Below, in pieces: positions 8,057 to 29,143 of a DNA stretch of 64,000 nt. Made by a program: the position numbers and the translations under genes. A model generated the notes under the pieces. It worked only from the letters and a program-made list of their open reading frames with translations, searched no databases and was not told where the DNA came from. Numbering within the stretch: position 1 is the first letter of the stretch; each line of letters begins with the position of its first letter. The stretch covers positions 2,480,001 through 2,544,000 of the forward strand of contig JAMXDE010000007.1 of assembly GCA_026770025.1 (NCBI GenBank), in the 5' to 3' direction. Origin of the DNA: Craspedostauros australis. Its lineage: Eukaryota > Bacillariophyta > Bacillariophyceae > Mastogloiales > Achnanthaceae.

Positions 8057-9855
8057 GTTCACAATTTGCGTCTCCGTTACCACCCCATGAGCATGCGGCG
8101 CAGGTGCTCGAATGCATCCCGCGCGAGACCCTTGGTGAAGATATCGGCGACTTGGTGTGGTGTTGGCACGTGCAGGATTCGAATGAAGCCCTCCTTGACC
8201 CAGTGCCAGAAGAAATGCCACTTAGTGAGGAAGTGCTTGGTCCGCGCCGTGACCTTGTGGTTCGTTGCCAGTGCAATGCACGCCTCGTTGTCTTCAAAAA
8301 CGGTGCATTGGATGTTGGTTTGCAGCGGTTGGTTGAGGCTCGTTGATGCGTTGACTTCGTTGATGAGTTGTTGCATGGGGATGAGGGCACGCATGGCAAG
8401 AGACAGCGCGGCGTATTCCGACTCCATTGTTGATAGGGCGATCTCCGTCTGCAGTTTCGATTTCCACACGAGCGGGCAGCCACCGAGGATGATGACGTAG
8501 CCGGTGCGTGAGCGCACTGCGTTGGGAGAATCGTCGGGCTCGCGCTTGTATAGACCAGCAAAGTCGGCATCCACGTAGCACTCCAGGTTAAGTTGGCCCG
8601 TTGGTCGTACGATAGTGCCCATGGTGTTTGTGTGGCGGAGGTATCGCACGATCATCTTAATGGCCTTTGCGTGCGGTTGGCGGGGATCGTTGCTGAATCG
8701 GGCCACTTGAGAGACGGCGAAGGCAAGGTCGGGGCGTGTGTTCGTAGTCAAGTAGAGCAGCATGCCGACGATGGAGCGGTAGTTCCATGCTTCCTTCATT
8801 GGTGGTTGGTCGGTTGAGGCGCCGAGGGCAAGTTGTGTTGTTGGTGTCACATTTGGTTTGCAGTGTTGCATGCCGGTGGCCTCGATGATCTTGTTGATTA
8901 GCCCGGTTTGCTTGAGGTGGATGGTGTTGTTTTTGGGGTCTCGATGCAGTGATATTCCCAGAAATTCCGTGAATGTGCCTTCGCGTGTGAGATCAAATCC
9001 GCGTTTGCGCATGGACTCGATGAATGCGTCTGCCTCTTCTTCCGTACGCGATGCGATACCGGCGTCGTCCACGTAGAGAACAATCATCATGCCGTCGCGC
9101 ATGAACAGGCACTTCTCTTGATCACACGCGTGAAATCCTTCTGCAAGGAGGGCGCGCACGAGATGCTGATACCATAGCTTGGGAGCTATAGTTAGACCGT
9201 AAAGGCTTTTAATCAGCTTGAGGCACGTGTCAGGTCCATTCGTTGATCGGAAGCCGCGAGGAAGGTGTAAGTAGACAGGTCGGTGGATGTCGGCTTGGAC
9301 GAACGCGTTCGGAAAATCGATCGACGTCGTGACCCAGCGAAGCAAAATGGAGAGGATGAGAAAGACGCGGACGGACGACCATGCAACGACCGGAGCGTAG
9401 GTCGCTTCCGTTTCGGTCATCATATCGCCTCTGCAGCACCATCGGCCTTTATATTTCTTGACCGTGCCGTCGGGCATTCGCTTGCGTTGGAATACCCATG
9501 TCCCCGGGAAGATGCGATCGGTGGTGGAAGATTTCGGCACCTCAATCCACGTCCCTTTGTTGGTGAGGTCGTGAATTTCCTTGTGCGCGGCGGCCATCCA
9601 TTCGCTTTTGTTGTCGTCATTCATTGCCTCGTTGAAGGAAAGAGTGTCAGGGTCAACTTTTGATGCCTTGTAGCTGTAGTGACGATCTGCGATGTCGAGG
9701 TCACCGCCGCTGGTGAAGAAGTTGAGCAGGTCGTATGTGATGACGGTACTGTGGTTGTCGTTGTCGTCGTGCTCGACCGCTGCTGCCATCGCGTAGTGTT
9801 CGTCGGTTTCGTCGTCATGCGGCGGTGGTTGGTGGGCGTAGTGAGTTGATGCCGA
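8057..9855 (-). mobile_element. Ty1/copia fragment, right copy: reverse transcriptase and RNase H end only
   Basis: This is the 3' part of a second copy of the same copia family. Positions 8,176-9,855 align to 1-1,680 without gaps. It encodes the end of pol (frame 9,789 to 8,077, 570 residues): reverse transcriptase with FPNAFVQAD and YVDD, then RNase H with DNEACIAL and the usual C-terminal ADIFTKGL. Similarity to the left copy stops at 9,855, so the gag, protease and integrase regions are missing. It is a broken fossil, truncated at its 5' end. Confidence 0.93.
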
Positions 9856-10840: not shown

Positions 10841-11215
10841 TGACGTCACAGGAATACCACCGCGATACCACGAGGATACCGCGATACTACGACAGCAGGA
10901 TACCGCGATACCAGGAACACCCAACATTTTGTCCGATTTTCACTTTTCTAGCTTGTGACCTAATTTACCGGGATTTAATACACTGAGTTGAGACAGAAAA
11001 GTGAATCGCCTGAAATCCTGAAAATCGTAGATAGGGTTACGCTATTTCTCTTCAATTGTCGTTGGTCCAGGCACGGAGAGACCGGACAAAAGCGGAGAAA
11101 CTAGATCAGACCGGACAGACCGGACAAAATGACCGGACAAACCGGACAAAATGACCGGACAGACCGGACAAAACAAACGAATCAACCGGACAGACCGGAC
11201 AAAACTCAAGAATTT
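10841..11215 (+). repeat. Left inverted-repeat arm of the outer transposon
   Basis: It begins with the palindrome TGACGTCA. A GGATACCGCGATACC tract with several tandem near-copies follows, then a block matching the right arm in reverse, then about nine CCGGACA units (11,088-11,205) separated by GA, AAATGA or AAA. Confidence 0.75.
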
Positions 11216-11370
11216 ATCGAACTATTTAACGGACGATTAGTCGAATATAACGGACATTTGGATCGTGAAGAAACAGACAAAACTACTTCGCACGGAGTGA
11301 CGCAAGCCAACCCAAACCACAAGAACAGATCAGCGAAACAAGACAACAAGCCAGCTTCGCACTGAAGTAT

Positions 11371-11528
11371 GAGCCATGTGAGTGAGTCGACCTACCGTTT
11401 GTAAAGTAGAGTGGCACTTTTTCTTCGATTACAATAAAACTAATCATACCAATCAACTCATTATAGTTTCCATAGCAACAGGAAAATTACCCAGAAACTT
11501 AAAGTTTATAGTTTAAGTTTTATGGACC
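11371..11528 (+). repeat. Left terminal inverted repeat of the inner transposon
   Basis: It matches the reverse complement of 15,848-16,005 with about a dozen differences and no gaps. The outer end is GAGCCATGTG and the preceding bases are GTAT. Confidence 0.92.
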
Positions 11529-12039
11529 AGCAAATATTTGGAGTCGTATGGGTCAAACGTAGCATTCCACAATGTAGTTTTGTCGAAGGTTCTTTGATGT
11601 TCCGAGTTAATAACAATTGGTGTCCATTCACGTTGGTGTCTCCAGCTTTTTCCTTCCTCCTCGTTCGTTTGGGACACGTTACACACCGTTAGCTGCTCCG
11701 GAATCGATTGACATTTTCCGCTTGTGGACAACACACACATCATCACATGCGCACGCACACATCGTCGCCACGCCGACACAAAAACCGTCACATTTTTTGC
11801 TTCATTCCAAAGGTGCCTCCGCCGATGCGATGCTCATTGTATCTGTTGTGCTGCGGTTGTAGTATGAGTAGTGAGAGCACTAGTGACATTGGTGGTTGTT
11901 GTTCTCGCTGCTGCATCCAACACCTCTATCGGCATCACCTCCTCCACCCGCTTTCATTCAGCGTTCTACAGTGCCGTTCATCGATCAATCAATCGATCAA
12001 TCAATCAATCAATCAACCTCCTTTGCTACCATCAACACC
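11529..12039 (+). other. 5' region of the inner transposon gene
   Basis: No separate gene is visible. A run of ATCA/ATCG tetranucleotides (about 11,976-12,016) lies just before the chosen start codon. The open frame extends up to 11,896, but the residues encoded there (repeats of DQSI/NQSI) are translated microsatellite. Confidence 0.5.
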
Positions 12040-15000
12040 ATGTCCTCCATCCCCGCCAAAGCAACAATCAAGGGCGAAAACCCATCTCCTCGTAAGAAGC
12101 CTCGTTCCTGTGCTGCCCCTCTCGATTCTCCGTTTGATTCGGAGGGCAACTTGGCACCTACTCGTGAGCAGCTGTTGCCTGACAAGCTGTCTACTGGATT
12201 GCGGAAGCCCACTGACATCACTCACGCGATCGAGGTGAAGCCGATGCTTCCGGTGGACAGCAACCTTGTTCCAACTTTGGCGCATGTCGATGCCGCTAAC
12301 CTGCGCGTTGACGTGCGCCTGTCCAGTGCGGCTGGTGTCATCTTTGATACACCAACGGTCACACTGCGTACGGTTGGACAAGGTGTCGGTGCTATCACAG
12401 TGGTAGACATCAGTGTGAACGTGCCACCTCCTGTTGAGTCTCCTGCCAAACCAACTACCCGCGCAAGCACTGCACGACACGCAAACGCTGTCGCTGGAGG
12501 CGCTTCCGAGCAAGTTGATGTTGACAGCGACGACGACTACGTGGATGGCCGTGATCGCAGGAAGAAGCGAACAGGCCGCAACAGAATCATCAAGAAAACG
12601 GTGAGAGGATGGCGTCGCGATGCGTTGGCCGGCGTCGCGGGGTTGGTCAAGTCGGGCCTATCTCCAAAAGTGTTCGACTCTATGCCGAAGACGGGCTTCG
12701 TACTCGGCGGAAAACACGATCGGCAAGTCTGGAGCAACATCAAACGGCTGTGGGCACCAATTGCTTCTGCGCTCTGGGATGTGTTGCTCCCAAAGCAACC
12801 AACACCGACTTGCCAGATGCATGAGGTGGTGCAATTTGTCCGAGCTGGTCAGCCACTGCCACCAACGACACTTGCACCAAATCTGTACCGCATATGTGTT
12901 GGAGGGAGCAAGCTCATGCACCTCTGCGCGAGAGCCGTTCTCGCGCAGTCTGCGTCTCCAACAACATGCACAGACATTCTCACTGGATACGTCAATGGAT
13001 TGCCGGAGGAAGAACGCGTGCGTGTACATAGCAATCGACAAACCATCACTAAAAGCCAACATAACACATTGCATCGGTACCATGACATGTTGAGCGATGG
13101 GGAAACCATTCCTCCCAAAGTTCTTCAATACCGTGTGACTGCATGTGCTTTGTCTGGTGTGGTGTCGTTTCTCTGCACTACGACCACGTACAAGGCTGGC
13201 TTGTGCCACGCAGTGGAGTGGGAAGGAGTCGTATTCGACAACGTTCCTGTCTTCGATCGTGGAGGAAAAAGCATCATGGCGCTATTCGACATGTACAAGA
13301 CGACGACTACTAACCCAGTGGGCGAACCAGCATTCAAAGAGATGACGCAGCTACTAACACGACGTGGCAAAGTGAACACAGGGCTGTCTTCCTTCGAAAG
13401 CCACTTCTTGCTGGCAATGCTAACTCTCAAACGCACGATCTCGCGCCTCGTCACACTTTTGAAGGCTAAGTATCCCACAACAAACGGCGCTGAGGACGAG
13501 AATGATGTGATTTCCCGGCATCTGCGCACAGCCAAGTCTCTTTTGTACTCATTGGAACTTCTTGTTGTCTTCGTCAAATGGGAATTCACAGCATCACACA
13601 TGCAGATGGAGTGTGATGACCCACTGCACTCGGCTCAATTCGCGCTCACGCCCAACCAGAAGAAGAAGACAACGACGAAACAATCCCAATCAACCAGAAC
13701 ACGTACAAACAAGCACAAGCTCAGGAAGAAGAGCACTCGAACAAGCGACATTGCTTCTGCCACCAATGACACCCCAGCCATCACAATTGATATTCCAGAC
13801 ATCACTTTTGTGACAGATACTGCTGCCAATGACACCACCACTGCCAACAACGAACAGCCTTGCGCCCCCACAGACAAACAGCACACTGGAGTATGTAACC
13901 GTTGTGCAGGGGTGATGCGTTTTGTGGATGACCGATATGTCCCTTTCGTCACGTTGCTTATGGAGGATCATCTTGCAGAACACGCGACAGAATTGGAGTC
14001 AATGATCAATGCCGCACCGGGGTTCAACAACGAAATACTGTGGTACATGGCACACAAAGTGCGCAGCAAGGTTCAATTCGGACAAATTGAGCAGTACCTC
14101 AAAAATATCAACAACAGAGAGGATCGTGCGCATGTGGTGCTCGACCACAAGCAGAAAATTCTTCCAACTGGCCAGGGCGAAGCTCAACAAGAATACTGGG
14201 GCAAGAAGGGCATGTCTCTGTTGGGTGCGATGGTGATCACATGTCACAATGACACATTCACTTATCGCTTCATCGATATCATTGTGAAGGGGAGGCCAAC
14301 TCAAGACACCCTCCAAGTTGGCGGGCTTCTCGAAATTGTGCAACAACAGGTGAGAAAAATTCTTCCATCGGTCACCGAAATTGTCATCCAATCCGATAAC
14401 GCGTCTTGTTTCGCGAGCCATGAGCACATCCCACTGATCACATCAGTGCTGAACAAGAACCTTGGAACGCGAAATGTCCCCAAGATCGCGGCCTGGATCT
14501 ACACCGAAGCCCAAACAGGCAAAGGCCGCCTTGACACGCACTTTGCGTACATCACTGTTGTATTGCGAGCCTACGTGCTGGAGGACAACGACATCAAGAC
14601 GGAACACCAACTTTTTGACGCCTTGGAAGCTGGCAACATCGCGGGAACGACCACCGTATTGGTGGATGCAGAATGCCTCGAAGGGCGCGTTGTGAGTTTC
14701 CCCGGCATGCCAAAGAAGCGTTTCTGCGCGAAAGGGCAAAAGGTACGCCAAACGCACGAGGTGAAGTTCGGAAACGACGAGGCCAATTTGGTGGCGGCAT
14801 CCGGTGTCACAGACGACGTTCTTGTCCCGTGTGCCGAATGGGAAGACTGGGAAATTAACCAGCTGGGCGTCCGCACCATCGCAACGCACACGTCAGGAAA
14901 GGAACCCTTCACCGCCGAATCACCAAAGAAGAAGAAGAAGACGCGAAAGTGGGGTGCTACCGCGGTGGAGAGCAAAGCGCTCGTCTTTCGCGACGCACTG

Positions 15001-15436
15001 AACATGGGGCAAGGAGAGCTACCACACGACCACACCGCAGAATTGAAAGACCAGACCGCGGAAGCCGAAATCCCCCAACTCGCGGTGAAGGGCTGGGCGG
15101 CGAAAACAACGCGCAGCAACGCGGAGTTACCACGGTACGTACTGCAGAAATTGGACGAAATGAGCACGGCCGCCAAAAAGGACCCGAAAAATCGACCAAC
15201 AGAACACGAAGCGCACCGCCGATTGATGGAGCTGGAGGGAACAGAGACTGATTGGTTCACGCAATTGCACGGAAGTCCAATGCGCGTGAAATCGTACCTG
15301 ACTGCGGCGTACTACAGCTCACAACGCGACGCCAAGAAAACAGCCGCGGCATCAGGTACGACCGACAACAACAAAAAAATGGCATCACCGTCACCACCAT
15401 CACCATCACCACCATCACCATCACCATCACCATCAC

Positions 15437-15506
<70 letters not shown>

Positions 15507-15732
15507 CGCTGCGAAACCAACAGGTACGACGCAAACAGAACAGCAGCACATGGAAGAAGAGGAAGAGATGGAAGAAGAGGAACGAGAGCACAGAATGTGG
15601 TGTGAGGCCAACACCACCAAGGCACATGCAGAGAACGAAGAGATGGTCCCAGAAGAAGTGAGGGATGCGATTCGGACGAGGATGAGAACGAGACTGTTGG
15701 CGAAAATGGAGGAAAAAATAAGGACTAATTAA
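12040..15732 (+). CDS. Transposase-like DDE protein of the inner transposon, 1,230 residues, family uncertain
   Basis: This is the only long gene inside the inner transposon, so it is most likely its transposase, acting in the nucleus to cut and join the element. I chose the ATG at 12,040 (MSSIPAKATIKG, context CACCATGT) over 11,896, because the upstream part is microsatellite-coded. Visible parts: a basic N-terminal stretch (RDRRKKRTGRNRIIKK, about residue 170); a conserved-looking HMQMECDDPLHS near 525; a possible zinc ribbon VCNRCAG near 620; and an RNase H-like core with VLDHKQ (D702), IQSDNASCF (D786) and TEAQTGKGRLD (E823, D832), which could supply the catalytic acids. Near the C-terminus a Ser-Pro tract and a Thr-Ala tract come from in-frame microsatellites (about 15,379-15,505), then acidic EEEE runs. 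I infer the DDE core from motif spacing only. Confidence 0.75.
15379..15505 (+). repeat. In-frame microsatellites inside the inner transposase gene
   Basis: A CACCAT/CATCAC-type repeat is followed by about eleven AGCAAC units. The reading frame passes through both without a stop, encoding Ser-Pro and Ala-Thr runs. Hexamer units keep the frame when they expand or shrink. Confidence 0.85.
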
Positions 15733-15847
15733 TTCAAAATGTGAACAAATTCGCCAAAACCAAGAACACGAACACGTTATTTTGGATCGAACTTGTCGTA
15801 TGTCTATCGCCCAGTTTAGGAGTAGTCAAAAAATGCGCACATTGACG

Positions 15848-16005
15848 GGTCCATAAAACCTAAACTATGGACTTTAAGATGCTGGGTAATTTTCCTGTTG
15901 CTATGGACACTATAATGAGTTGATTGGTATGCTTAGTTTGGTTGTAATCGAAGAAAAAGTGCCACTCTACTTTACAAACGGTTGGTCGACTCACTCACAT
16001 GGCTC
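15848..16005 (-). repeat. Right terminal inverted repeat of the inner transposon
   Basis: This is the inverted partner of 11,371-11,528. It ends CACATGGCTC and is followed at once by GTAT, the second copy of the target duplication. Confidence 0.92.
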
Positions 16006-16009
16006 GTAT

Positions 16010-16900
16010 GGCATCATGCCAATGCAAATGTCCAGTTCTATTGCATTATGTGTGTTGTTCTTATTACTGTTTTGTGGTATGACATCAAATCTCAAAGAGT
16101 TCTGCTCCATCATCCTGATGGTATTGCACAATGACACAAATGGCTTCAAACACATGCTTCTGCTTTTCTGTGCCATGCAAAAAGTGATCTTCAGCACGCT
16201 GAAGAACTCCAGTCTCTCATTGAAGGTCTCATGATGCAACCGTGCTCTGCTCTTGAAGTTTTCAAGTTCTGGCCCATCGAACTCATTTGGTGTTCACATC
16301 ATATTCTTTTTCATACGACTCGTCCTGTGCCCACGATCAGCAATGATGACTTTCCCACCTGTGATCTGATGCAACAATCCTTCACAACAAATAGTCAAGT
16401 CATGTTTACCTCATTGGTGGAGCAGTCATGTTTACCTCATTGGTGGAGCCCGTGGATCCAAACACACTTTAAGTGGTACACAGTGATTGCGATCTCGTAT
16501 TTGAGAGCACCGTGGTTGAACTTCTTCGAGCCCCATGCCAGATCTGTGTTGAGTGTTGAGTGTTTCTGCTCCCATACATGAAAATATGTGCTGTCAACTG
16601 TGGCAATGAAAGCTGTTCCCTCTTGATCATTCAATGAGCTTGGCCAAACAGTCATGTCAGCTTTCATTGCTGCAATCATTTTGATCCAGCACCATAGATG
16701 ATTCCATATTGCATACTATCAAAATATCCCATATGCTGCATCAAGGATGTTGGCATTCTTTGGATTGGTCCATAGAAAGCATAGAACTGCAAGGAACATT
16801 CAGAAGCCTCTTCCAGTGTTGTCATATTGTGATATCTTTGCTACGGAAGTAGTCGTTGTGTGCATGTCATCCCAAATACCTGAAATAGTTTCCGGCCAAG
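16010..16900 (-). pseudogene. Decayed DDE_Tnp_4 (Harbinger/IS5-like) transposase of the outer transposon
   Basis: Reading leftwards, several frames together resemble the DDE superfamily endonuclease common in algae and oomycetes. A helix WNHLWCWIKMIAAMKAD and VWPSSL are followed by the first acidic motif TVDSTYFHVWEQKHST (near 16,600) and SKKFNHGALKYEIAI...VWIHG. Then come a second motif IADRGHRTSRMKKN (near 16,320) and a third HHETFNERLEFF (near 16,230), and a short C-terminal part near 16,040. The frame is interrupted in several places, for example a stop after the ADRGH region, a frame change near 16,240, and a 27-bp tandem duplication near 16,400-16,450 that contains CACCAATGAGGTAAACATG. 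It cannot make an active enzyme. No N-terminal DNA-binding part could be read upstream. Confidence 0.7.
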
Positions 16901-22011: not shown

Positions 22012-24693
22012 TCAATTGGTTCTCATTGAGCGGACAAGGTCCACGAGTGTCGCCCGGTCCATGTATGAATCCACTTGTGCTGCACCCTCATCCTCATTGA
22101 CAACCTTGTACAGCTCCATCATGGACATACAGCTGTACTCATCATCAATGTCATCGCTCTCTGCTTCCCCACTGCAAAGCACCTTGATCTCCATGATCAG
22201 TTGGGGCTGTAGGATCAGCTTGCTGAAATCTGGATGAGTGAGCGGATTTTGTTCATATCCAACTGCCATTCTCATTGCTGCATCCTTCAACACCATGCAG
22301 TTGTGTTGATCGGCGAATATCAACGCATCTATCATGCTGTCCTCTGTGAGATATTTGCGGGCCAACTCTGCTTCGACAACAAGCTTGAGTCGCCAGAAGC
22401 CGAATTCGTTGGCCACAAGGATCAGCTGTTGCAGATCGTCCTGTCCATTGAGGGTGGGAGTTGGTTGGTTTGCGTCACCGGCATTAGCGTTGTCTTCATG
22501 AGCGCTGTTGTCGAAGGACATCTCACCTGTGTAGATGCATTGGAGGACGTGTTGGACGTGTTTTGGTTGAAGGTTGGGAAGAGGGATGGTCGTTTGGATG
22601 GGATCAGTTCCATCTTGAGCACCATTGTGAGCACATTGATGTTGGATTCCGGAGTTGATCAATGTCTGAATAGATGGGACGGTGATCATGAGGAGTGCAG
22701 AGTTTGCCTTGATTGATTGTTGGTCGTCCCCTTGTCCGCACAGGAAGGCAATGTCTGCGATGGCCTCGGCACGAACAGCAGTGCGACGATCTTGGTCGAT
22801 GCTGATCTTGAGGTGTTGTTTCAACTTCAGTTTCAGTTGTTCGCTCTCCTGTTGACTTTTCGAGAGCAAGCGCTGCATTGATTCCTCCTTCCGTTCCAAT
22901 TGCTGTTTCAATTGTTCGTTCTCCTGCTCCTTCTGGGTCTTCTCTTCCTCCTTCCGTTCCAACTGCTGTTTCAGTTGTTCATTCTCTTGCTCCTTCTGGG
23001 TCTTCTCTTGCCCCTCCCGTTCCAACTGCTGTTTCAGCTGTTCGTTCTCCCGTCGAGTTTTCGAGACCATGCCCTGCATTGCCTCCTTCTGCTGTTTCGA
23101 TTGCTGTTTCGACTGCTGTTTCATCTGCCATTTCAGTTGCTTGTTCTCCTGGTCCTTCTTGTTCTTTTCTTGCCCCTCCCGTTCCAACTGCCGTTTCAGT
23201 TGTCCGCTCTCTCGTTGACTTTTCGAGAGCATGCGCTGCATTTCTTCCTTCTGCTGTCCCAACTCCAGCTTCAGTTGTTCGTTCTCTCGCTGACTTTTCG
23301 AGAGCATGCCCCGCATTGCTTCCTTCTGCTGTTTCAACTGCTGTTTCAGTTGCTTGTTCTCCTGCTCCTTCTTATTCTTCTCTTGCCCCTCCCGTTCTAA
23401 CTGCTGTTTCAGTTGTTCGCTCTCCTGGTCCTTCTTTTTCTTCTCTTGCCCCTCCCATTCTACCTGCCGTTTCAGTTGTTCGTTCTCTCGTTGACTGTTC
23501 GAGAGCATGCCCTGCATTGCTTCCTTCTGCCGTTTCAACTGCCACTTCAGTTGCTCGTTCTCCTGCTTGTTCTCTTTCAACTGCTGTTGCTGTTGCTGGT
23601 TGCGGTGACTGCGATCAGCGATGATTGACTTCACCACATTGAGTTGATCGATTGTACGGATCACATCGAGAGGGGTTTTGTTGTCACTGTCTTGGATGTC
23701 GATATCGGCATTGGCTGATGCGATGAGGTACTCGATGCACTCCAGCTGGTCGTTCATGCATGCTTGATGAAGGGGAGTGGCACCTAACAAGTTTTGGAGG
23801 TTGACGTTGACCCCGTGTGATTGGATGAGGTACTTCACACACTCCAGCTGGCCGTTGCGGCATGCGAGATGAAGGAGAGTGTTATGAAACCTGTCTTTGC
23901 AGTTGATGTCAGCCCTGCATGATTCGATGAGGTACTTCACACACCCCAGTTGGCCAGCGAGGCATGCATGCTGAAGGGGAGTGGTGCCCTTGTTGGTTTT
24001 GCAGTTGACGTTGGCCCTGCATGATTTGATGAGGTACTTCACACATTCCAGCTGGCCAGTGATGCATGCATGATGAACGGGAGTGCCACCAAACTTGTCT
24101 TCACAGTTGGCGTCAGCTCCGCATGATTGGATGAGGCACTTCACACACTCCAGCCGGCCATTTTGGCATGCCCGATGGAGGGGAGTGACGCCATCGTTGT
24201 CTTTGCAGTTGATGTCTGCCTCACATGACTCGATGAGGTGCTTCACACATTCCAGCTGGCCGTTTTTGCATGCCACATGAAGGGGAGTGAGACCGTCGTT
24301 GTTTTTGCAGTTGATGTCCGCCTCACATGATTCGATGAGGTACTTGACACATTCCAGGTGGCCGGTAGCGCATGCGTCATGAAGGGGAATGGTTCCATTG
24401 TTGTCTTTGCAGTTGGCGTCGGCCCCACATGATTCGATGAGGTACTTGACACACTCCAGGTGGCCGTGAAGGCATGCCCAATGAAGGAGAGTGATACCAC
24501 TGCCGCTTTTGCAGTTGACATCAACTCCTTCATTCTGCGTCTTGTTCTGCTCCTTCCATTCCTTCAACACTGACAAGTCACCTGCCTTGGCAGCATCAAC
24601 GAGTTGTTCGTTTGTAACATTCGGCATTTGGAGAGGATAGTCGATAGTTGCTGGACGATGGTTGTTGGGTGATTGACGTTGGATTATTGGCAT
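22012..24693 (-). CDS. Ankyrin-repeat / coiled-coil / BTB-domain protein, 893 residues
   Basis: The N-terminal third (about residues 65-365) holds eight full 34-residue ankyrin repeats plus a partial ninth. They are very regular, with repeated GHLECVKYLIESC and GADANCKDN elements. A coiled coil follows (about 370-645), built from near-identical units around QRENEQLKRQLEREGQEK. The C-terminal part (about 650-800) reads as a BTB/POZ domain: AEAIADIAFLCGQGDDQQSI, then PKHVQHVLQCIYTGEMSFD and LILVANEFGFWRLKLVVEAE. Ankyrin repeats bind other proteins and BTB domains dimerise and recruit Cullin-3 E3 ligases, so a substrate-receptor role is plausible but inferred. A second ATG lies 22 codons in (MPNVTNEQLV). 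The repeats are alike enough at DNA level to suggest recent internal expansion. Confidence 0.88.
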   Translation of the reverse strand: MPIIQRQSPNNHRPATIDYPLQMPNVTNEQLVDAAKAGDLSVLKEWKEQNKTQNEGVDVNCKSGSGITLLHWACLHGHLECVKYLIESCGADANCKDNNGTIPLHDACATGHLECVKYLIESCEADINCKNNDGLTPLHVACKNGQLECVKHLIESCEADINCKDNDGVTPLHRACQNGRLECVKCLIQSCGADANCEDKFGGTPVHHACITGQLECVKYLIKSCRANVNCKTNKGTTPLQHACLAGQLGCVKYLIESCRADINCKDRFHNTLLHLACRNGQLECVKYLIQSHGVNVNLQNLLGATPLHQACMNDQLECIEYLIASANADIDIQDSDNKTPLDVIRTIDQLNVVKSIIADRSHRNQQQQQQLKENKQENEQLKWQLKRQKEAMQGMLSNSQRENEQLKRQVEWEGQEKKKKDQESEQLKQQLEREGQEKNKKEQENKQLKQQLKQQKEAMRGMLSKSQRENEQLKLELGQQKEEMQRMLSKSQRESGQLKRQLEREGQEKNKKDQENKQLKWQMKQQSKQQSKQQKEAMQGMVSKTRRENEQLKQQLEREGQEKTQKEQENEQLKQQLERKEEEKTQKEQENEQLKQQLERKEESMQRLLSKSQQESEQLKLKLKQHLKISIDQDRRTAVRAEAIADIAFLCGQGDDQQSIKANSALLMITVPSIQTLINSGIQHQCAHNGAQDGTDPIQTTIPLPNLQPKHVQHVLQCIYTGEMSFDNSAHEDNANAGDANQPTPTLNGQDDLQQLILVANEFGFWRLKLVVEAELARKYLTEDSMIDALIFADQHNCMVLKDAAMRMAVGYEQNPLTHPDFSKLILQPQLIMEIKVLCSGEAESDDIDDEYSCMSMMELYKVVNEDEGAAQVDSYMDRATLVDLVRSMRTN

Positions 24694-27820: not shown

Positions 27821-29143
27821 TCATGGGATCAGGTCGATGTATTCTTCGAATGTGAGCTTGTGCCATTGGTACCGTGAAGACTGCTGATTACCATTCATGG
27901 TGCAATGAATGTTGGCGAGGAACGCAGCAACAAAATGAATGTGTGTGAGAGGATTCTGCAGTGTTTTGTTGGCGTTGCGAACGCTCACCAAGGGAAAATT
28001 TTTCGTGATCTCCTTGAATGCCCACTCAACACAGATGCGACCCGATGCCATGTCCTTGTTGCACTGCGCCTCAGAAGACCCTGGAACAGTGTCCTTGTAT
28101 GCAGCGAATATGTATGGTGTAGTAGGATATGCTGGATCACCGTAGAGACGATATGGAGGATTGTTCTCATCCAACGGCATGAGAGCCTCCAATCGCTGTT
28201 CGATTTGGCTTTGCTGGAACATGTACCCGTCACCACGAGCACCCGCAATCGGCCCAAAGTAGTGAATGAGCAACCCATCTGGCGCAACGATGGCTTGATA
28301 GTGCAGCCCATGACCGCGTTTATAGCCTGAGTAGAGGTCCTCTTGATTCTCTGAGGGACGACAGGTTTCCCAGAACGTGCCGTCGACATACCCGAACACA
28401 TCATCCACCAAGCCGCGGGTGAGATGATGATTGTTCTCCGCATAGTCAGGGAATCGAGTATGAAACAAACCGATGTCGCTCAGGTATGGCTTGCCAATGT
28501 CATAGAAGTAGGAGTAGAAAGTGGAGGCTATACTGGAAATGCGGACGCTGTCCATGCTGAATATCTGTTCCATGTCACAAAGCCGTCCGCGATGTGCCAG
28601 ACGGAACAGCATGATGAGCAATCCCATTTCGTATGATACCTTGTATCGATTCTTCACTTGAATGCATTCAGGATCTGCCTCACCAGACACTGCCTGGAAT
28701 TTGGGCCAGAGACGGTCAGCCAGACGTTGAAGATCACGCACACGGAAACGAAAGTGACGAACACTTTCGCGTTCGTCCAGTTCCGCGATGGCAATGTTCC
28801 TGTTGGTGAACATGGGAGGAGGTCCCAATGGAGTGAGGTAAAGTTGCTGCATTTGTAGCACATGACGGCCCAATGCGACGATGTTGCTATAGTGCTCAAC
28901 CAGAATCACGACGCCTGCATAATCCAGACGTTGGATGTCGATGTCTGCAAGTTGAGCGATGGCAGCCTCAAATCGAGTGCTGGCTTCTTGCAATACCTGC
29001 CGCTCGGGAACGGTATTCCAATTAGTATTGACCATGACAACGATAGTAAGCAGTGGTCGAACGTGTGGAGGAGCTGTGTGTGCGAAGGTGCGATGAACAC
29101 AGAAGGATTGAAGGAGCAACGAGTATAGCATGAAGCGAAGCAT
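27821..29143 (-). CDS. Harbinger-type DDE nuclease (DDE_Tnp_4), 440 residues
   Basis: The catalytic motifs are in order: GYVDGTFWETCRP (first Asp), YGDPAYPTTP (second Asp) and RICVEWAFKEITKNFPLV (Glu), as in the DDE superfamily endonuclease of PIF/Harbinger and HARBI1. A helical N-terminal region with a YEMGLLIMLFRLAHRG helix precedes them, as usual. The frame opens at 29,143, where the first residues look like translated leader. A second ATG at 29,035 (MVNTNWNTVPERQ) is an equally good start and would give 404 residues, closer to the family. The enzyme excises and reinserts the element, working with the Myb-like protein encoded by the facing gene. Confidence 0.88.
   Translation of the reverse strand: MLRFMLYSLLLQSFCVHRTFAHTAPPHVRPLLTIVVMVNTNWNTVPERQVLQEASTRFEAAIAQLADIDIQRLDYAGVVILVEHYSNIVALGRHVLQMQQLYLTPLGPPPMFTNRNIAIAELDERESVRHFRFRVRDLQRLADRLWPKFQAVSGEADPECIQVKNRYKVSYEMGLLIMLFRLAHRGRLCDMEQIFSMDSVRISSIASTFYSYFYDIGKPYLSDIGLFHTRFPDYAENNHHLTRGLVDDVFGYVDGTFWETCRPSENQEDLYSGYKRGHGLHYQAIVAPDGLLIHYFGPIAGARGDGYMFQQSQIEQRLEALMPLDENNPPYRLYGDPAYPTTPYIFAAYKDTVPGSSEAQCNKDMASGRICVEWAFKEITKNFPLVSVRNANKTLQNPLTHIHFVAAFLANIHCTMNGNQQSSRYQWHKLTFEEYIDLIP

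Follow-up and report, generated by a model that had tools for sequence, protein, structure and literature searches.

A DNA transposon of a probable DDE/D lineage with N-TA-N target duplications in the diatom Craspedostauros australis

The window analysed here, a stretch of 64,000 nucleotides from the Craspedostauros australis genome (GenBank assembly GCA_026770025.1, contig JAMXDE010000007.1, positions 2,480,001 to 2,544,000), contains at 11371-16005 a 4,635-bp element that is very probably an autonomous eukaryotic DNA transposon of the cut-and-paste type and of the DDE/D lineage, either as a divergent Sola-like branch or as a superfamily of its own. The transposon group to which it belongs is large and was recently mobile, and an annotation based on Pfam would miss it, so that in such genomes its many genes would be counted as host genes or as “unknown”. 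With its strict choice of N-TA-N targets, defined ends and intact gene, the element can be tested as a candidate for an active algal transposon, and its core motifs offer a handle for deciding if any DDE/D superfamily is still missing from the list.

The terminal inverted repeats (TIRs) were delimited by inverted-repeat alignment at 11371..11528 (left, + strand, beginning GAGCCATGTGAGTGAGTCGACC) and 15848..16005 (right, - strand). Each is 158 bp long, the two are identical at 148 of 158 positions (93.7%, E 7.6e-65), and the pair was also recovered as one long inverted repeat by separate inverted-repeat detection. Target duplication copies reading GTAT directly abut the element on the left (11367..11370) and on the right (16006..16009). 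The interior carries a putative transposase gene of 1,230 codons in one open frame (12040..15732, + strand), identified as an open reading frame (ORF) and further supported by genome matches and dN/dS; the element holds no second ORF above about 230 aa. The original prediction of a whole transposon with 158-bp inverted repeats, a GTAT duplication and a 1,230-residue gene was correct in its coordinates, residue positions and sequences.

To reconstruct the empty site, we fused both flanks of the element, keeping one GTAT, and searched the resulting 341-bp query against the same genome (74.8 Mb, 90 contigs). Among the 30 matches listed, at least 23 uninterrupted sites span the fused-flank junction (339-341 of 341 bp, 96-99% identity), and in a 24th match the alignment across it is 250 bp long and 83% identical; the remaining matches listed are the two flanks in the window or partial. 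Six of the 23 sites were fetched, and all six read ...CACTGAAGTATGGCATC... with a single GTAT. Because the fused flanks match intact sites with one GTAT, insertion and a 4-bp duplication are demonstrated: the transposon inserted into one copy of another repeat and duplicated 4 bp. The flanks at 11201-11370 and 16010-16180 of the window belong to this repeat, which is 96-99% identical to the 23 or more other uninterrupted site copies.

Related copies were collected by searching the genome with the 1,230-aa protein. The 38 large matches scored comprise 18 copies at ≥ 90% identity (group A; the window copy is counted and three copies, L016, L017 and L019, are partial) and 20 matches at 59-61% amino acid identity (sister group B), and 16 additional matches are short C-terminal pieces. 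The matched stretch is free of stops in 12 of the 18 group A matches and 19 of the 20 group B matches. Group B elements are longer, at about 6.1 kb, and in the one group B copy read for this feature the 1.5 kb following the gene has no ORF > 153 aa. Searching with a 165-aa group B core gave at least 150 matches scored of 371 candidates, 149 of which are stop-free over 165 aa.

Further copies with 4-bp duplications were found in both groups. Both ends lay in the fetched stretch for 13 group A copies (five single-ended copies, L013, L014, L016, L017 and L019, were excluded), and of the roughly 16 left-right pairs visible in group B, 10 had their ends fetched. An exact 4-bp duplication flanks 22 of these 23 copies, and every one of the 22 has the form N-TA-N. 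In group A the duplications are GTAT, ATAG, TTAC, TTAT, ATAA, ATAC, ATAT, TTAA, TTAT, TTAC, ATAT and ATAG (12 of 13 copies), and L015, read at both ends, shows no target duplication. The first nine of the ten group B copies have TTAT, ATAT, ATAT, ATAA, ATAC, CTAA, TTAT, CTAT and TTAT; in the tenth (L063/L064/L101, C7:1988556-1988620) the right terminal motif is doubled, with the two motifs 43 bp apart, and the outer one gives the duplication CTAT. The bases on either side of TA are the same in both flanks, and GTAT is single at the empty sites, which rules out a 2-bp duplication of TA.

The ends themselves connect the two groups. The ends of close copies match those of the window element, and none with non-matching ends was encountered; group B has the terminal motif in common with the window element and differs in the rest of the TIR. 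The shared portion covers roughly the outermost 22 bases, which form the motif GASCCNNNNNAGTGAGTSGACC, and the sequences diverge further inward. Genome-wide, 317 occurrences of the end motif GASCC-N5-AGTGAGTSGACC were counted, 312 of them preceded by TAN, and the reversed-pattern control gave 0. Pairing of 99 of the 100 listed ends (the last, on C10, was left out) yielded 40 left-right neighbour pairs, with a spacing of 4.56-4.64 kb in 3 of them and of 5.98-6.12 kb in 29. In the same 99 ends, the ends of two elements fall within 230 bp of each other at C2:2605 kb, C4:3215.9 kb, C9:1073.4 kb and C9:1605.4 kb, four close clusters that suggest nesting near the element’s own ends.

Conservation in the protein was assessed with two alignments. 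Alignment A1 holds 19 group A and B copies, one of them the window protein and 18 drawn from the 29 loci L002-L030; the other loci were left out for internal stops (L005, L010, L011, L012 and L026), as partial (L015, L016, L017 and L019) or as near-duplicates (L023 of L022 and L030 of L029). A pattern search of the genome and the fetched stretches gave a deeper group, C (L088), and a search with the group C core, in which 132 of 344 candidates were scored, returned at least 243 matches, together with groups C' (L094), D (L091), E (L092 and L097) and F (L093). Identity to the window core is 40-43% for groups C, C', D and E and 64% for group F. Six such sequences are in alignment A3, which holds 11 core sequences (L095 and L098, with broken frames, and L096, with a stop, were left out). 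Seven sequence groups in one genome thus keep D702, D786, E823 and D832.

The putative first catalytic Asp, D702 (14143..14145, + strand, within VVLDHKQKILP), is invariant in both alignments (19 of 19 in A1, 11 of 11 in A3). The putative second, D786 (14395..14397, + strand, within QSDNA), is present in 11 of 11 sequences of A3 and 17 of 19 of A1; Asn replaces it in L007 and L008, which are probably dead copies. Two candidates for the third catalytic residue, E823 (14506..14508, + strand, within TEAQTGK) and the alternative D832 (14533..14535, + strand, within LDTHF), are each conserved throughout both alignments (19 of 19, 11 of 11). Across A3 the four residues lie in the motifs DHKxxxLP, QSDNAxCF, TEAQxGK and DxHF, respectively, and in groups C to E an insertion whose length varies lies between the QSDNA motif and WxxTEAQ. 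The acids follow one another as D, D, E/D, the order found in DDE/D transposases, which fits a protein of this kind, and by analogy with known DDE enzymes D832 would be placed where the helix with the third acid is expected. The three acidic motifs of the original prediction (D702, D786 and E823) are thus at the residues given and conserved in the aligned copies, in support of its DDE-like reading of the protein; its choice of third acid is less firm, as D832 may fill that place instead of E823.

Two further segments lie upstream of these acids. The HMQMECDDPLHS segment, which had been correctly placed at residues 520-531 (13597..13632, + strand), is conserved across groups A and B, with H520, Q522, C525, D526, D527, P528, H530 and S531 invariant in 19 of 19 copies, and possibly forms a metal-binding knuckle. 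In the CNRC motif (residues 619-622; 13894..13905, + strand), C619 and C622 are likewise invariant (19 of 19) and may be a zinc ligand pair.

The substitution pattern of the gene fits maintenance by purifying selection. For the whole gene, dN/dS was 0.19-0.26 in all eight copy pairs compared; in the core it was about 0.06-0.08 between group A and B copies, where silent sites are close to saturation, and reached its highest value, 0.28, for L018 vs L029. In this last pair silent sites differ by 0.57 in the N-terminal part (A1 columns 1-690) and by 0.16 in the catalytic core (691-870), as if the core had passed between groups by exchange or conversion. Recent activity, which the original prediction had suggested for the element, holds for the group: over a stretch of 5,731 bp L029 and L030 share 99.98% identity, and they have different duplications (ATAT and TTAT), and near-identity at different sites means that the group moved recently. 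The window copy itself looks older, with ends that differ at 10 of 158 positions and a nearest relative that is 96% identical in protein.

Sequence databases were searched with single proteins and with profiles. Pfam gave no credible match for the window protein, the 19 members or the 11 diverse cores, and NCBIfam none for the window protein, with sub-threshold matches to unrelated families only in both. There was no match in PHROGs, PDB sequences (searched by profile as well) gave weak unrelated matches or none, and no relative of the protein was found among viral contigs, prokaryotic genomes, plasmids and phages. Pfam DDE or rve models were absent among the matches of the 19 full-gene and 11 core members at E-values up to 10, a search in which most matches above about 0.1 are lost to the HMMER filters. 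The literature searched, which offers partial coverage, contained no description of the element.

AlphaFold models were computed from the window sequence alone, without an alignment, and both are of low confidence (324 residues: pLDDT 37.8; 181 residues: pLDDT 46.9, pTM 0.46). In both weak models residues 696-774 are arranged as strand-strand-strand-helix; D702 comes immediately behind the first strand and D786 follows the helix, and beyond D786 the two disagree. Foldseek and VIA on these low-confidence models returned unrelated low-score matches only. An RNase H fold is probable for the protein but beyond what models of this confidence can establish.

The element might be a member of the Sola superfamily (Sola1, Sola2, Sola3 or a further branch), a superfamily whose founding paper is reportedly that of Bao et al. 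in 2009. As far as the excerpted description goes, Sola elements have a DDD transposase, 4-bp target duplications, sizes of mostly 2-9 kb and variable TIRs of 11-1124 bp (PMC10741241), and the present element is alike in duplication length (22 of 23 copies), size (4.6-6.1 kb) and TIR length (about 158 bp). The invariant D832 would permit DDD; E823 is invariant too, and either acid could be the third. These shared traits are loose and were compared by description. Moreover, the Sola2 targets given for amoebozoans (Dictyostelium) in the excerpts of PMC3627910 follow AWWT (ATAT, AAAT and ATTT) and differ from the N-TA-N targets here, which include GTAT, CTAT, CTAA, TTAC and ATAG. We consider membership of Sola possible, at somewhat less than even likelihood. 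The same tentative standing applies to our proposal that the element stands for a superfamily-level lineage of at least seven groups in one 75-Mb genome, outside the 20 superfamilies with a DDD/E transposase in Repbase (as given in the excerpts of PMC9587614 and PMC4455052), the comparison being by description. The marks of such a lineage would be the N-TA-N duplications, the GASCC-N5-AGTGAGTSGACC ends and the motif series DHKxxxLP / KxGMSLLG / QSDNAxCF / TEAQxGKxxxDxHF.

It is unlikely that the element is a member of some other Repbase superfamily (Kolobok, piggyBac, Tc1/mariner, Ginger, EnSpm/CMC, MuDR, hAT, P or others) and is simply too divergent for Pfam. In favour of such a placement, TA lies inside every duplication read, and the termini are purine-purine (GA...TC), as in Kolobok according to the excerpted text of PMC9587614. 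Against this, the duplication is a 4-bp N-TA-N and not a 2-bp TA, TTAA accounts for 1 of 22 only, and even at E-values up to 10 no DDE or rve model matched in Pfam, with most matches above about 0.1 dropped by the HMMER filters. Kolobok is thus alike in its termini and 4-bp duplications, but the present element is not TTAA-specific; it also has no conserved C/DxxH between the second D and the last E, a motif that the same excerpts describe as common to hAT, P, MuDR, Kolobok and Dada (PMC9587614) and that is not conserved in A3. The TTAA duplication likewise separates piggyBac from the element. Tc1/mariner, as excerpted from PMC10741241, is alike in the TA of its target, whereas here the duplication is 4 bp (22 of 23 copies, with a single GTAT at six of six empty sites), the TIRs are long and the protein is large; Ginger has a Gypsy-like integrase (Pfam rve), for which the search above gave no match.

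That the protein is a passenger or non-catalytic, with the transposase supplied from elsewhere, agrees with its lack of a match to any annotated transposase family and is nevertheless highly improbable, as it is the sole ORF of its size in the element, is conserved together with the ends in two groups, shows purifying selection, has invariant acidic motifs that run D, D, E/D, and is followed by no sizeable ORF in the group B copy read.

General features of DDE/D transposons are present in the element: TIRs with a target duplication, an empty site and three conserved acidic residues. For the preferred reading, an autonomous cut-and-paste transposon, we propose the following course of movement. 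The single 1,230-aa protein, most likely a DDE/D transposase, would bind the sub-terminal block AGTGAGTCGACC shared by both ends and would cut at the terminal GASCC. Joining of the ends to the target would follow, with a stagger of 4 bp that has TA at its centre, and repair would leave the N-TA-N duplication. From the conserved positions we infer that D702 and D786, plus E823 or D832, would be the catalytic residues, and movement would presumably be by excision rather than replicative.

Neighbouring genes in the window, which are in keeping with a diatom as host, encode a DUF6824 protein, of a kind typical of diatoms, and, by Pfam, a Copia-type reverse transcriptase ORF at 8077-9789 (- strand; RVT_2, E 4.8e-39) and a 440-aa ORF at 27821-29143 (- strand; DDE_Tnp_4, E 6.5e-19), the latter a separate transposase-like gene. 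An 893-aa ORF at 22012-24693 (- strand) combines ankyrin repeats with a BTB domain, and these lie around a long middle part that is repetitive and charged.
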